NCBI RefSeq assembly: GCF_902806695.1
Contig: NZ_CADCXN010000124.1
Coordinates: 1 to 64,000 of the forward strand
Origin: Candidatus Methylobacter favarea
Lineage (GTDB): Bacteria > Pseudomonadota > Gammaproteobacteria > Methylococcales > Methylomonadaceae
Length of the DNA: 64,000 nt
Reading direction: 5' to 3'
A model generated the notes under the pieces. That model saw only the letters and a program-made list of their open reading frames with translations, was not told where the DNA came from and made no database searches. Numbering within the stretch: position 1 is the first letter of the stretch; the number at the start of each line of letters is the position of its first letter. The translations under genes and the position numbers were made by a program. This document shows, in pieces, positions 20,693-25,478 of this stretch.

Positions 20693-22045
20693 CTATCCCA
20701 GCTTCCGGTATAAGGTGCTGCGATCCAGGCCGAGTATCCGGGCCGCCTGAATTTTATTGCCGCCGGTCATTGCCAGGACATGGCGAATATAGGCTTGATT
20801 AATGTCCTCCAGCGACCATCCTTGCATCATTGCCAATTCAAAAAAGCTGGTATCGTTGACGGGCAGTTTCGAAGCCTGCGCCAGATCTTCCAGCAAAAGG
20901 GTATCATGGTCGGCAAGCACAATAGCCCTTTCAAGCGTATTGGCAAGCTCCCGGACGTTGCCTGGCCAGTGATAGGCCCGAATCCAGCGCAATACTTCCA
21001 CCGAAATATTGACCGGCCCCTGTTTGCCAAGGCGCAGGCAAACGGTGTCGATCAAGGTTTTGGTTAAGGCGTCAAGATCTTCCTTGCGCTCTCTTAACGG
21101 AGGCACTTCAAGGCTGATTACATTCAACCGGTGATACAGATCGAAACGAAACAATCTATCGTGGATGCGCTGCTCCAGAGGCTGATGGGTAGCGGCGATC
21201 AAGCGTATGCTGACCCTGGTTTCTTTGGTATCACCGAGCGCTCGGACTTTTCCGGTTTCCAGCGCCTGCAGCAGCTTAGGCTGAATTTCCAGGGGCAGTT
21301 CAGCGATTTCATCAAGGAATAATGTTCCGGAGTCGGCCTGTGAAAACAATCCCGGCCTATCCTTGCTGGCATCGGTAAAAGCGCCCTTGCGAACGCCGAA
21401 TAACTCACTTTCCACTAAACTGTGCGGCAATGCAGCGCAATTAACGGCGATAAAAGGGCCTGAATGATTTGGACTGTTGTCATGAATCCAGCGGGCTACT
21501 GCGCTTTTACCTGTGCCGCTTTCTCCGGTCAGGAGCACTGTAGAGTTTACTGCGGCGGCCCGTGTTGCCATGCTGACCAATCGCTGCATGCCGGGACTTT
21601 GAGTTATAAAAATGCCCGTAGCGCTGTTTTTATCATCAGTAAAGCCTATTTTTACAGCCGTGCGCCGCATTTGCCGGTCTTCAAGCGCCCGTGCTACTGC
21701 TGTATAGAGTTCTTCAATGCGAAAAGGTTTGGTTAAAAAGTCGCAGGCCCCTGCGCGCATGCTTTGCATCGCCAAATCAATACTGCCGAAAGCGGTTATC
21801 AGCAATACCAGCTGTTCAGGCCGTTTACGGTGTATAGCCGCCATTAACTCCAGGCCGCGCATCCCGGGCATAATGACATCGGATATCACCAGATCAAAGG
21901 ACTCGTTTTCTATAGCATTGAGCGCATCAGCAGTATCAGTGAATCCAGCGGCCGAATAATTAACCTGGCGCAGCATGTCGATTAGATAATCAACAATACC
22001 GGGATCATCATCGATCACTATAATTCGACGACTTGCTGTCATCAT
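20693..22045 (-). CDS. Sigma-54-dependent NtrC-family response regulator
   Basis: A 450-residue activator: receiver domain (about 1-120, phospho-acceptor Asp in DLVISDVIMPG), AAA+ domain with Walker A GESGTGKS, Walker B GTLFLDEIAEL and the sigma-54 contact loop, and a C-terminal Fis-type helix-turn-helix (GGNKIQAARILGLDRSTLYRKL). The contact loop reads GAFTDA instead of the canonical GAFTGA. It should activate RpoN promoters on phosphorylation by the kinase encoded upstream: the kinase stop and this ATG share one base (TGATG), with GGAG before it. No target genes or sigma-54 promoter could be identified nearby. Confidence 0.93.
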   Translation of the reverse strand: MMTASRRIIVIDDDPGIVDYLIDMLRQVNYSAAGFTDTADALNAIENESFDLVISDVIMPGMRGLELMAAIHRKRPEQLVLLITAFGSIDLAMQSMRAGACDFLTKPFRIEELYTAVARALEDRQMRRTAVKIGFTDDKNSATGIFITQSPGMQRLVSMATRAAAVNSTVLLTGESGTGKSAVARWIHDNSPNHSGPFIAVNCAALPHSLVESELFGVRKGAFTDASKDRPGLFSQADSGTLFLDEIAELPLEIQPKLLQALETGKVRALGDTKETRVSIRLIAATHQPLEQRIHDRLFRFDLYHRLNVISLEVPPLRERKEDLDALTKTLIDTVCLRLGKQGPVNISVEVLRWIRAYHWPGNVRELANTLERAIVLADHDTLLLEDLAQASKLPVNDTSFFELAMMQGWSLEDINQAYIRHVLAMTGGNKIQAARILGLDRSTLYRKLG

Positions 22046-23547
22046 CAGGCTTTTCTCCACGGCAAATGAATGATAAAAAGGCTGCCTTTTCCGGGTTCTG
22101 ATTCGGCCACGACGGTGCCGCCCATTTCAGTAACTAACGACTTGACGACAGCTAAACCAAGGCCGGTGCCTCCTTGTTTGCCGCGCGTGGTAAAGTAGTG
22201 TTCAAAAAGCCGGGATAGATGCTCGGGCGCAATGCCTGTACCCGTATCGGCGACGCTAAGCTTTAGCACTGGCATTGTTTGTTCGGCATGGCTAATCGAA
22301 GTCCGGGACAACTCGATGGTTAAGGCGCCGGTATTGATATTGGCGGCCAAGGCATTGGTGAGCAAGTTTAAAACAATCTGCTGGATGCCGTCCTTGTTGA
22401 TCGATATCAAGGGCAGCGACTTCGGGTGGACAAAAGTCATTGTGACTCCCTGACGCCGTGCTTCAAAGCCCAGCATATCAATAACCTCGGCTATAGCCGT
22501 GATGACATCGCAACTCATAGGCTCAGTCGGATGGCGCGGGGCAAACTCCAGAAGACGGTGGACAATGCGCGTGATACGATCGGTCTGGTCCACTAATATA
22601 TTGGCAATGCGGCGAACTTCTTCATAATCATCGTTGCAGGCCGCGAGCGCTCTCGCCCTGCCGTTGACGATTTGCAAGGGCGAGCCGATTTCGTGGGCAA
22701 GCCCCGCCGATAACTGACCGATCGTAATCAATTTATTCGCATCCTGTAAGGCCCGTTGCAGTTGTCGTCTATGCTGCGTTTCAACATCCAGGCGGCGGTA
22801 AGCCGAAAATAACTCGGCAGTCATCCGGTTAAACTCTTGCGCCACGGCAGCAAATTCATCCTTGCCGGATACAGGTAAAGGCTTCGGGGGCTCCGTGCTG
22901 TTTCTGAAATTCCGCATGGCCTCGCGAAGCCTCTGTAGAGGCACTGAAATATAAATATGGCCCAACAAAAGGCAAAGCAGGGAAGTAAACAGAATGAAAG
23001 CAATGAAAGATAAAAGAATATAGGTTTTGGTTTTACTTAAATTTTCATGCATCGTTTGCAGCGATTTGACGATAGCCACATTGCCGTTTAAATTGCTTGA
23101 CCTCTCATAAAATGGCAAGGACAAAATGAATAAGCGGGGTTCATCGGCCGGGTAATAGAACTGTTTCACTTCGCCCTCTCTTGCCGCCTGGTATAAGCCC
23201 TGTTCGACTTGTTGCGGCCATACCAGGCTTTCCGCGTTCGAGCGGATGACATTGCGATTTTGAATATAAATGCGGATATCGACAGACGGTTTGATCCGTT
23301 CTAATTGCTGCATGAGTTTTTGCAGATCTTCAGTCTGATGATCCCGCAAGGCGTTTTCGACCGAAACCAGCAAGCTGTTGGCTAACAGACGGGTTTCCTG
23401 TTCGACAGTATTAAGTAAATCTCGCGCTTCGGTATGTAGATGATAGGTCCCGTAAATGCCAAAAACCATCCAACTTAAGGCAAACAAGGAAATGGCCAAT
23501 TTATAAATAGCGGACATAGCGTTGCATCTTGCACTCCATTGTCGCAA
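22045..23547 (-). CDS. Membrane sensor histidine kinase
   Basis: A 500-residue kinase with two transmembrane helices (about 11-31 and 176-198) bracketing a periplasmic sensor of about 140 residues, then a HAMP segment, a coiled region, the H-box IGQLSAGLAHEIGSPLQIVNG (His about 285) and the ATPase domain (N-box NLLTNALAANI, G1 DTGTGIAPE, G2 GGTGLGLAVVK). The sensor has no motif I recognise. It forms a pair with the NtrC-type regulator just downstream. A long inverted-repeat element lies 40 bases upstream of its start, between it and the efflux operon. Confidence 0.93.
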   Translation of the reverse strand: MRQWSARCNAMSAIYKLAISLFALSWMVFGIYGTYHLHTEARDLLNTVEQETRLLANSLLVSVENALRDHQTEDLQKLMQQLERIKPSVDIRIYIQNRNVIRSNAESLVWPQQVEQGLYQAAREGEVKQFYYPADEPRLFILSLPFYERSSNLNGNVAIVKSLQTMHENLSKTKTYILLSFIAFILFTSLLCLLLGHIYISVPLQRLREAMRNFRNSTEPPKPLPVSGKDEFAAVAQEFNRMTAELFSAYRRLDVETQHRRQLQRALQDANKLITIGQLSAGLAHEIGSPLQIVNGRARALAACNDDYEEVRRIANILVDQTDRITRIVHRLLEFAPRHPTEPMSCDVITAIAEVIDMLGFEARRQGVTMTFVHPKSLPLISINKDGIQQIVLNLLTNALAANINTGALTIELSRTSISHAEQTMPVLKLSVADTGTGIAPEHLSRLFEHYFTTRGKQGGTGLGLAVVKSLVTEMGGTVVAESEPGKGSLFIIHLPWRKA

Positions 23548-23586
23548 AATGCAACACGATATGAGCTGAATTATTTAATTTCTCTT

Positions 23587-24004
23587 GATCAGCAAGAATT
23601 TTTAGCTAGGCGCGGCTCTCGCCGTTATACACACGTTTGTTCAAGCCCGTCATTCCGGCTGGGAGTCCTGTCAGGCTGTCCTGCCTGACACCCTTCGGGT
23701 AAATGCAAATCCGTTCCAGACGGATTTGTGCCGGACTAATTCGCCGGGAGCGAATTTGGACATGCGCAGCAGGGGGCGAAGCCCGAACCGCAAGGAGGCG
23801 GTGAGCAATCCAGGCTACATGGAAGTATTTAAGTTCGCCATTCATGGCACTGGATTCATGCGGGGCTTTCCTGCCCCGCACCCCAAGGGATAAATGCCAA
23901 TCTGTTCCAGACAGATTGGTCCCGCTTCCCGGCGGGTATGACGAATTACCCGCGTAATTGTATATAACGGCGAGAGCCGCGCCTGGGGAAGATTCCTGCT
24001 GATC
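23587..24004. mobile_element. MITE-like element with 21-bp perfect terminal inverted repeats and paired hairpin units
   Basis: The ends are inverted copies: a perfect 21-bp repeat (23609-23629 and 23963-23983, core GGCTCTCGCCG), flanked outward by an imperfect match to GATCAG at both tips (about 44 bp each). Inside are two copies of a unit about 190 bp apart. Each has an 8-bp hairpin (23669-23690; 23859-23880), a CCC/GGG mini-hairpin, and a 9-bp hairpin with loop TCCAG (23706-23728; 23897-23919). The stems differ between copies at five pairs, every time on both sides, so pairing is kept. A further hairpin is at 23738-23756. No protein is encoded. It is probably a non-autonomous element or a structured RNA carrier. 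Confidence 0.7.
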
Positions 24005-24365
24005 AGGTAAGTGCTTAATGTAACCTTATTAAATAGCGTAAAAGTTTCTGGATAAGTAACTGGCGTGCATTTTGCTTATATTTTAATTTATAAATACTGA
24101 ATTCCTATTACCATCAGGATTTTATTAATACATCAATTGTTTTTTTTATGTACATCACGCTTGCTTCCGATAATCGCTTCTTTCCTTCCCCGCCTAATCC
24201 TGCCCAATCATTAGCTGGCGCCCGTAAAAAGCCGCCGTTTAGTGAACAGATCATAACTTTTGCACCCAAATTCATCTGTTTGGAAAAGCCTCATCGGTGA
24301 TCGCAAGAACCTGTCCCGGCATTTGCGCCGCGGGTCAAAATTTTAATTTGCATAAGCGCCCAATA
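24005..24365. other. AT-rich leader before the efflux operon
   Basis: About 360 bases between the repeat element and the fusion-protein gene. It is AT-rich at 24060-24150 and contains a run of eight T at 24141. I see no gene. The promoter of the efflux operon is expected here, but no clear -35/-10 pair or repressor palindrome was found, and no tetR or other regulator gene adjoins the operon. Confidence 0.4.
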
Positions 24366-25478
24366 ATGAAAATTAGCCAACTACTGTTTATTTCAGTCTG
24401 CTTAATCATCGCCGCCTGCAGCTCAAAAAAAGAAGCCGAGACCGTCGATACCCATAAGGTAGTAAATCCTGTCCTGGAAGACATTACCTACAGCAACGAC
24501 TATGTAGCCAACATTCACTCGGTGAAATATGTAGAGATCAGAAGCAAAATCAAAGGCTATATTGAAAAAATTCATGTCGATGAAGGGCAGCCCGTCAAGA
24601 GAGGACAGTTGCTGTTCACGCTCAGCTTTCTGGTATTTGAAAAGGAATTGCAAAAAGCGGATGCGGCTTATAAAAACGCCATAGCCGATTTGAAGGCGGC
24701 CGAAGTTGAATTAATCAATGTGAAACTGCTGGTAGCAAAAAATATTGTATCCGGGACAGAGCTGGATGTAAAAAAAGCCAAAGTAGAGGCGTTAAAAGCC
24801 ACTGTGGAAGAGGCTAAGGCGCACAAAGAGCAGGCCGCTTTAAAACTTTCATTTGCACATATTAAAGCGCCCTTCGACGGCGTCATCAACCGTATTCCCA
24901 ACAAGGTCGGCAGCTTGATAGAGGAAGGCGGGCGGCTGACCACTATTTCCGACAACCGCGAGGTATTTGTTTATTTCAACCTCTCAGAAATTGATTACCT
25001 GAATTATATGGCTAATGGCGAACAGAAAACAAAAACCGTAAGTTTAAAACTGGCAAATAACAGGCCCTATGGGCACGAAGGAAAAATAGAAATGATTGAA
25101 AGCGAATTCGATCAATCAACCGGTAATATTGCGTTCAGAGCGAGGTTTCCAAATCCCGATGCAATTTTAAAACATGGATCAAACGGCAAGGTTATTGTCA
25201 AAAAACAGCTTAAAAATGCGTTGCTCGTGCCTCAAAAGTCAACCTTTGAAATTCAGGATAAACTGTATGTTTTCGTGGTAAATCAGGAGGATGTGCTGGA
25301 GCAAAGGAACATCGTCCCCAAACTGCGCTTACCTGATTTTTATGTTGTGGAGTCCGGCTTGACCAACGAAGAAAGGATCCTGTTCGAGGGCGCAGGCAAT
25401 GAGAGAGATGGCAAGAAAATACATCCTGCACCTGTCGATCTGGCAAAAGCCATGTCTTTAAACGGCAAAGATTCATAA
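24366..25478 (+). CDS. RND efflux periplasmic adaptor (membrane fusion lipoprotein)
   Basis: A 370-residue adaptor linking the inner-membrane pump to the outer-membrane channel. It has a lipoprotein signal (LIIAACSS, lipidated Cys about 19), a biotinyl-lipoyl-like hairpin start (KGYIEKIHVDEGQPVKRGQ), a coiled-coil helical hairpin (about 80-150) and the returning barrel segment (IKAPFDGVINRIPNKVGSLIE). Length is typical of AcrA/MexA proteins. ATG 24366 is chosen as it begins the signal peptide; an earlier in-frame start at 24297 adds 23 unlikely residues. The pump gene follows 12 bases after the stop. Confidence 0.9.
   Translation: MKISQLLFISVCLIIAACSSKKEAETVDTHKVVNPVLEDITYSNDYVANIHSVKYVEIRSKIKGYIEKIHVDEGQPVKRGQLLFTLSFLVFEKELQKADAAYKNAIADLKAAEVELINVKLLVAKNIVSGTELDVKKAKVEALKATVEEAKAHKEQAALKLSFAHIKAPFDGVINRIPNKVGSLIEEGGRLTTISDNREVFVYFNLSEIDYLNYMANGEQKTKTVSLKLANNRPYGHEGKIEMIESEFDQSTGNIAFRARFPNPDAILKHGSNGKVIVKKQLKNALLVPQKSTFEIQDKLYVFVVNQEDVLEQRNIVPKLRLPDFYVVESGLTNEERILFEGAGNERDGKKIHPAPVDLAKAMSLNGKDS

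Follow-up and report, generated by a model that had tools for sequence, protein, structure and literature searches.

Two-hairpin mobile units nested within a CGTC-tagged REP dimer in Methylobacter, with copies inserted in frame inside conserved genes

Palindromic repeats inserted in frame within genes are familiar above all from Rickettsia, whose intracellular lifestyle, with its relaxed selection, offers an easy explanation for them. Rickettsia palindromic elements (RPEs) are short palindromic repeats that lie between genes and also in frame within functional genes, to which they add a conserved peptide (PMC10969869, PMC3733652). A second kind of short repeat is the REP, and a CGTC tag beside the palindrome, often in inverted dimers, marks one REP superfamily in the scheme of Di Nocera et al. 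(PMC3733652). Here we analysed a 418-bp stretch within 64,000 nt of DNA from Candidatus Methylobacter favarea (the window) and find that it is a mosaic of nested repeats, in which a degenerate outer inverted repeat encloses a CGTC-tagged REP dimer, which in turn holds three copies of a two-hairpin unit of ~63 nt in the order A (+), a weak inverted B and A' (+) (Table 1). The host palindrome carries the tag of that superfamily, with CGTCATTCCGGC..GCCGG and ..CCCGGCGGGTATGACG in inverted orientation. A first-pass annotation had read the hairpin series as the internal architecture of one inverted-repeat element. This was not borne out: each hairpin copy is a separate mobile unit, and such units also stand by themselves, in tandem arrays, within genes and in REP hairpins.

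Table 1. Features of the nested mosaic, in window coordinates
Feature	Position	Strand	Remarks
Whole nested mosaic	23587..24004		Extent as in the first-pass annotation
Outer inverted repeat, left arm	23587..23633		Holds 21-mer 23609-23629 (+); unit-free related arms in G015, G004, G011
Outer inverted repeat, right arm	23959..24004		Holds 21-mer 23963-23983 (-)
CGTC-tagged REP palindrome, left half CGTCATTCCGGCTGGGAG	23648..23665	+	Interrupted by unit A; uninterrupted relatives CGTCATTCCGGCAGGGATTGCCGG
Unit A, 63-nt two-hairpin mobile unit, subtype 1	23666..23728	+	R1 match 23665-23731, 90.1 bits
REP palindrome, closing half TGCCGGA	23729..23735	+	Empty relatives
Unit B, inverted divergent third copy, longer middle	23733..23809	-	R1 match, 21.9 bits
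Central spacer of REP dimer (AATCCAGGCTACATGG..GGCACTGGAT)	23807..23855	+	In several genomes module 221-269 is matched by itself
Unit A', 64-nt two-hairpin mobile unit, subtype 2	23856..23919	+	R1 match 23855-23922, 79.7 bits
Second REP palindrome of dimer (CCCGCTTCCCGGCGGGTATGACG)	23921..23943	-	Module 335-357 matched alone; intact CTGGATACCCGCTTCCCGGCGGGTATGACG in relatives

The 21-bp terminal repeats are perfect, as had been claimed: GGCGCGGCTCTCGCCGTTATA is exact in both arms, and its own genome holds no further site at up to three mismatches. Beyond the 21-mer the outer arms pair imperfectly (39 nt at 82% and an outer 17 nt at 88%), and the terminal TGATCAGCARGAAT of the outer repeat is present at three other places. 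A check for target-site duplication at the ends of 23587-24004, which the annotation had proposed, found none evident, and a search in the sister species for an empty site of the whole 418-bp element found the flank not alignable there. The left arm contains TTATACACA at 23625-23633, which is identical to a DnaA-box sequence of E. coli oriC, and the right arm in the window reads TTATATACA; relatives in G015 (arms in L148-L167) keep TTATACACA in both arms (..GTTATACACAAG / CTTGTGTATAAC..). Within 20693-25478 the mosaic is flanked by a sigma-54-type two-component pair on the - strand and by an RND efflux adaptor gene on the + strand, and so separates divergent promoters. The sister species differs in that its kinase gene does not adjoin the efflux genes or operon.

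Searches with the element support its composite make-up. Its own genome yielded 33 partial matches, each over different modules, and 20 of 41 genomes were matched, the sister species (G001) with 26 pieces; recurring match breakpoints bound element positions 62-149, 143-240, 221-269, 264-339 and 335-401. Outer arms and a CGTC..GACG core free of hairpin units are present in G015, G004 and G011, and the core is contiguous there (CGTCATCCCGGCAGGGATTGCCGGGATCCAG..CTGGATACCCGCTTCCCGGCGGGTATGACG); these unit-free REP dimers serve as paralogous empty sites. The REP and its three units also recur together as a block in G001 (C7:77843-78138 and C17:37454-37756), matching element positions 56-357 at 83-85%. 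The match of unit B to model R1 is weak (E = 7.8e-6 locally, 6.9e-4 over the window), and its form also recurs at other loci. The composite is probably without a function of its own.

We collected ~110 copies of the unit and aligned 59 (alignment A1). The consensus begins with TCAY, continues with an 8-bp stem (loop TNTCCT), then CCCTTCGGG and TAAATGC, and closes with a 9-bp stem (loop TCCNG) and TTTG(T); in A1 the ends are TCAY on the left and TTTGT on the right. Units are 63-65 nt long and contain two covarying stems and a short CCC/GGG stem. Copies are found in both orientations and inside genes. Among 142 copies examined, 26 lie in open reading frames that continue for 40 codons or more beyond each end. 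One frame is common to 20 of the 26, although these counts are inflated by orthologues and some of the open reading frames arise by chance. The shared frame reads TN(L/P)(S/P)G(T/A)DLHLPEGxxAGxPxx, a 21-aa peptide of the TNLSGTDLHLPEG type. Predicted fusions involve HrcA, aminopeptidase N (pepN), the ribosome GTPase YlqF/RbgA, ComF/GntX, TrhP, TilS, a spermidine-synthase-like protein, a P-type ATPase, a VTT-domain protein and a DUF4912 protein. HrcA has 0, 1 or 2 unit copies depending on the genome, and TrhP at L367:6742-7998 (+) begins with four tandem 21-aa units, a predicted N-terminal extension of 84 residues. Among the papers searched, none has this peptide or mentions such a repeat in Methylobacter.

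To locate empty sites, the joined flanks of gene-embedded copies were searched in 121 genomes of the family, and orthologues were found to align through the junction. Orthologues of three genes lack exactly 63 nt: 16 of the 20 comparisons that span the site in hrcA are gap-free, as are 7 of 8 in rbgA and the single one in pepN, with filled and empty sites compared between species in all cases. Neither pepN nor rbgA has a target duplication, and the TCATGC on both sides of the unit in hrcA could be a 6-bp target duplication or chance. Target sites outside REP hosts resemble GWT^TSMNG, a consensus inflated by orthologous copies. The right flanks resemble the left end of the unit itself, with T in 46 of 48 sites (orthologues included), then C/G, C/A, any base and G in 40. 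Units also form tandem arrays at 63-65 nt spacing, which show insertion beside a unit or duplication of the unit. A hairpin loop or palindrome as the general target was rejected, as such sites are not enriched outside REP hosts (8.5% vs 7.8% in shuffled pairings).

As a whole, the locus is best explained as a nest of short non-coding mobile repeats whose unit is mobilised in trans via its hairpins, a reading in which we place moderate confidence. The mobility of the unit is well supported; its mechanism we infer. Three ~63-nt units would have been inserted into a CGTC-tagged REP dimer that itself lies inside the outer inverted repeat. A trans-acting enzyme would recognise the two hairpins, probably as single-stranded DNA, and would move the unit to short sites resembling GWT^TSMNG, and this recognition in trans would keep the stems covarying. 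Insertion into genes would be tolerated because it adds 21 residues in frame. With its two same-orientation hairpins, its lack of inverted ends, at most slight duplication and a probable short target, the unit resembles IS200/IS605 chemistry, and for this reason we favour a single-strand route in trans. Y1/RAYT genes were considered as mobilisers and set aside, as 26 Y1_Tnp loci in five genomes have no unit ends nearby, and no autonomous version or parent with separated unit ends was found among the fetched loci. In the genome of Ca. M. favarea, a RAYT-like Y1 gene at L135 (G000:C105:194-490) has beside it a classic GTAG-type REP, which contains AGTAGCCTGGATGAAACGC and has no relation to the 63-nt unit. 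L124 (G000:C79:5780-6109), in the same genome, is an IS605-like locus where a Y1 gene with an internal TGA stands beside a divergent tnpB-looking gene, and its end hairpins (CCCCTCCCTAAAGGAAGGGG) are unlike those of the unit.

The core common to the unit end and the target fits a site-specific recombinase as well. On this alternative, a circular form would recombine at a short core (TSMNG) shared by the unit start and the target, through an IS110-type or tyrosine recombinase and not a single-strand transposase. Such a route would predict tandem arrays, and both the likeness of the right flanks to the left end of the unit and the TCATGC on both sides in hrcA are consistent with it. However, the flank consensus is inflated by orthologous copies and no IS110-type or tyrosine enzyme is linked to the unit, and we regard this route as unlikely.

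Mobilisation in trans via hairpins would also bear on the stems, for which the first-pass annotation had reported five compensatory changes without a broken pair. Direct reading of both stem pairs confirms them. The 9-bp stems, CAAATCCGT/ACGGATTTG (23706-23728) and CCAATCTGT/ACAGATTGG (23897-23919), share the loop TCCAG and differ by A-T to C-G and C-G to T-A, and the 8-bp stems, TGTCAGGC/GCCTGACA (23669-23690) and TGCGGGGC/GCCCCGCA (23859-23880), differ by T-A to C-G, C-G to G-C and A-T to G-C. Units A and A' represent two subtypes that are found separately elsewhere; the five changes are therefore older than the 418-bp element and did not arise inside it. By itself the A and A' pair is weak evidence for selection on the fold, but the stems also covary across 59 and, in a larger set, 116 distinct copies. 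In the 59 aligned copies, 92.3% of stem cells pair in the named structure, vs 81.5% when shuffled and 24-48% when slid, and two-sided changes number 153 vs 56 shuffled. For the 116 copies, in an alignment made by the model that favours the structure by construction, pairing is 96.1% vs 84.0% shuffled and two-sided changes are 322 vs 104. The loops keep TCC while the stem letters vary. Further copies sought in Methylococcales genomes, as had been advised, thus change their stems with compensation. The proposed selection on the fold gains from pairing preserved over so many more copies, and the same support covers another pairing-preserving process.

The annotation had left the folded molecule as RNA or single-stranded DNA, and the evidence leans towards DNA. 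Selection on RNA should tolerate G·T but not A·C mismatches, so their equal rarity in the stems of 45 non-redundant copies (17 vs 15, small numbers) speaks for DNA, or else for a mutational process by which hairpins are re-paired; over all rows the counts are 27 vs 49. If the units instead acted in transcripts, in stability, termination or regulation, RNA selection would make the stems covary. The covariation and the strong predicted fold suit such a role, the folding of 23587-24004 lying far beyond chance against shuffles (z = -10.7 as DNA and -13.0 as RNA), and REPs in general are often transcribed (PMC3733652). However, G·T is not above A·C, copies lie in both orientations and inside genes, and the 418-bp stretch matched no family in Rfam, so that a structured RNA seems improbable. 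Pairing might also be kept by mutation, through hairpin-templated repair in replication (quasi-palindrome correction) that rewrites one arm from the other. Such a process would leave compensated changes with wobble intermediates scarce and with G·T and A·C mismatches occurring symmetrically, but stem correction does not account for the conserved loops and the CCCTTCGGG motif and leaves dispersal and exact insertion unaccounted for, and we rate it as improbable as the structured RNA. The comparison of G·T with A·C offers a simple test of whether constraint acts on RNA or on DNA, and other repeats can be tested in the same way.

With model R1, 25 unit copies are found in the genome of Ca. M. favarea, and 81 of the 151 genomes sampled from the order are matched, the named ones being Methylococcales methanotrophs. 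Public records with the exact core are, among the matches listed, nearly all from Methylococcales (Methylobacter, Methylomicrobium, Methylovulum, Methylotuvimicrobium and Methylococcus), with two contigs labelled no more precisely than Gammaproteobacteria. Of 369 genomes drawn from across the class, 70 match, among them three from the order of the unit, and the rest do so weakly; the weak matches that were read have the same plan, similar loops and often an extra hairpin. A tRNA origin of these weak matches was rejected, no tRNA being present at them. Common descent of the class-wide relatives with the Methylococcales unit is likely. Carriage by phages or plasmids was likewise rejected, with no exact-pattern match in viral contigs and no blastn match in phages and plasmids. 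In G457, from another family of the class, many near-identical 77-nt relatives lie within one larger dispersed repeat (L289-L302; CCCTCACCCCATCCC..GGGAGAGGG). We tentatively suggest, at somewhat less than even confidence, an undescribed Gammaproteobacteria superfamily of mobile elements that have two or three hairpins but no transposase gene, and that would serve as mobile in-frame peptide cassettes in housekeeping proteins and be moved by an enzyme acting on the hairpins. Its forms would be 63 nt long in Methylococcales; those of other families would measure 65-88 nt, have similar loops and in many cases include one more hairpin.

A larger repeat can carry the unit as a passenger, as it has in G107, where an element of ~320-370 bp that ends in CTAGAGCATTTTCATATCGC is present ten times (L222-L231), each time with the same unit at the same REP position. 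That units spread only as passengers of such amplified elements and by tandem slippage, which fits the tandem arrays, is the least probable alternative, because single units inserted exactly into unrelated genes, the orthologues of which are empty, require mobilisation of the unit alone.

The confirmed stem changes thus lead from a proposed design to a mobile and sometimes gene-embedded family of palindromic repeats. As the family occurs in free-living methanotrophs with filled, empty and multi-copy alleles of the same gene, its mobility, the tolerance of the proteins and the missing enzyme would be testable in culturable strains. The earlier remark that no named element has this design holds for the exact combination only, since its parts resemble CGTC-tagged REPs and RPEs. 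Like RPEs, the unit is dispersed and also inserted in frame inside conserved genes, but it differs in sequence and host and has 63 nt with two separate hairpins, whereas RPEs are palindromes of ~100-150 bp. At the protein level, at which alone RPEs were compared, no RPE model of NCBIfam or Pfam was among the matches of seven host proteins. As with REPs and REPINs, we are dealing with abundant non-coding palindromic repeats that also occur in tandem and in open reading frames, here with a host palindrome that carries the CGTC tag. However, the unit has no GTAG or CGTC tag at its ends, its 63 nt form two same-orientation hairpins whereas REPs are single palindromes of 20-40 bp and REPINs inverted pairs, and it does not flank the 26 Y1_Tnp loci as in a REP with RAYT system. 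Non-autonomous IS200/IS605 elements are like the unit in their two hairpins close to the ends, their lack of terminal inverted repeats and at most slight target duplication, and probably also in a short target, but among the fetched loci there is no related transposase or longer element with the ends of the unit. The outer repeat is MITE-like in having terminal inverted repeats and no coding capacity; in contrast to MITEs, it has no evident target duplication and the 63-nt units have no terminal inverted repeats. In kind the unit comes closest to RPEs and REPs, and the features tested place it in neither group.
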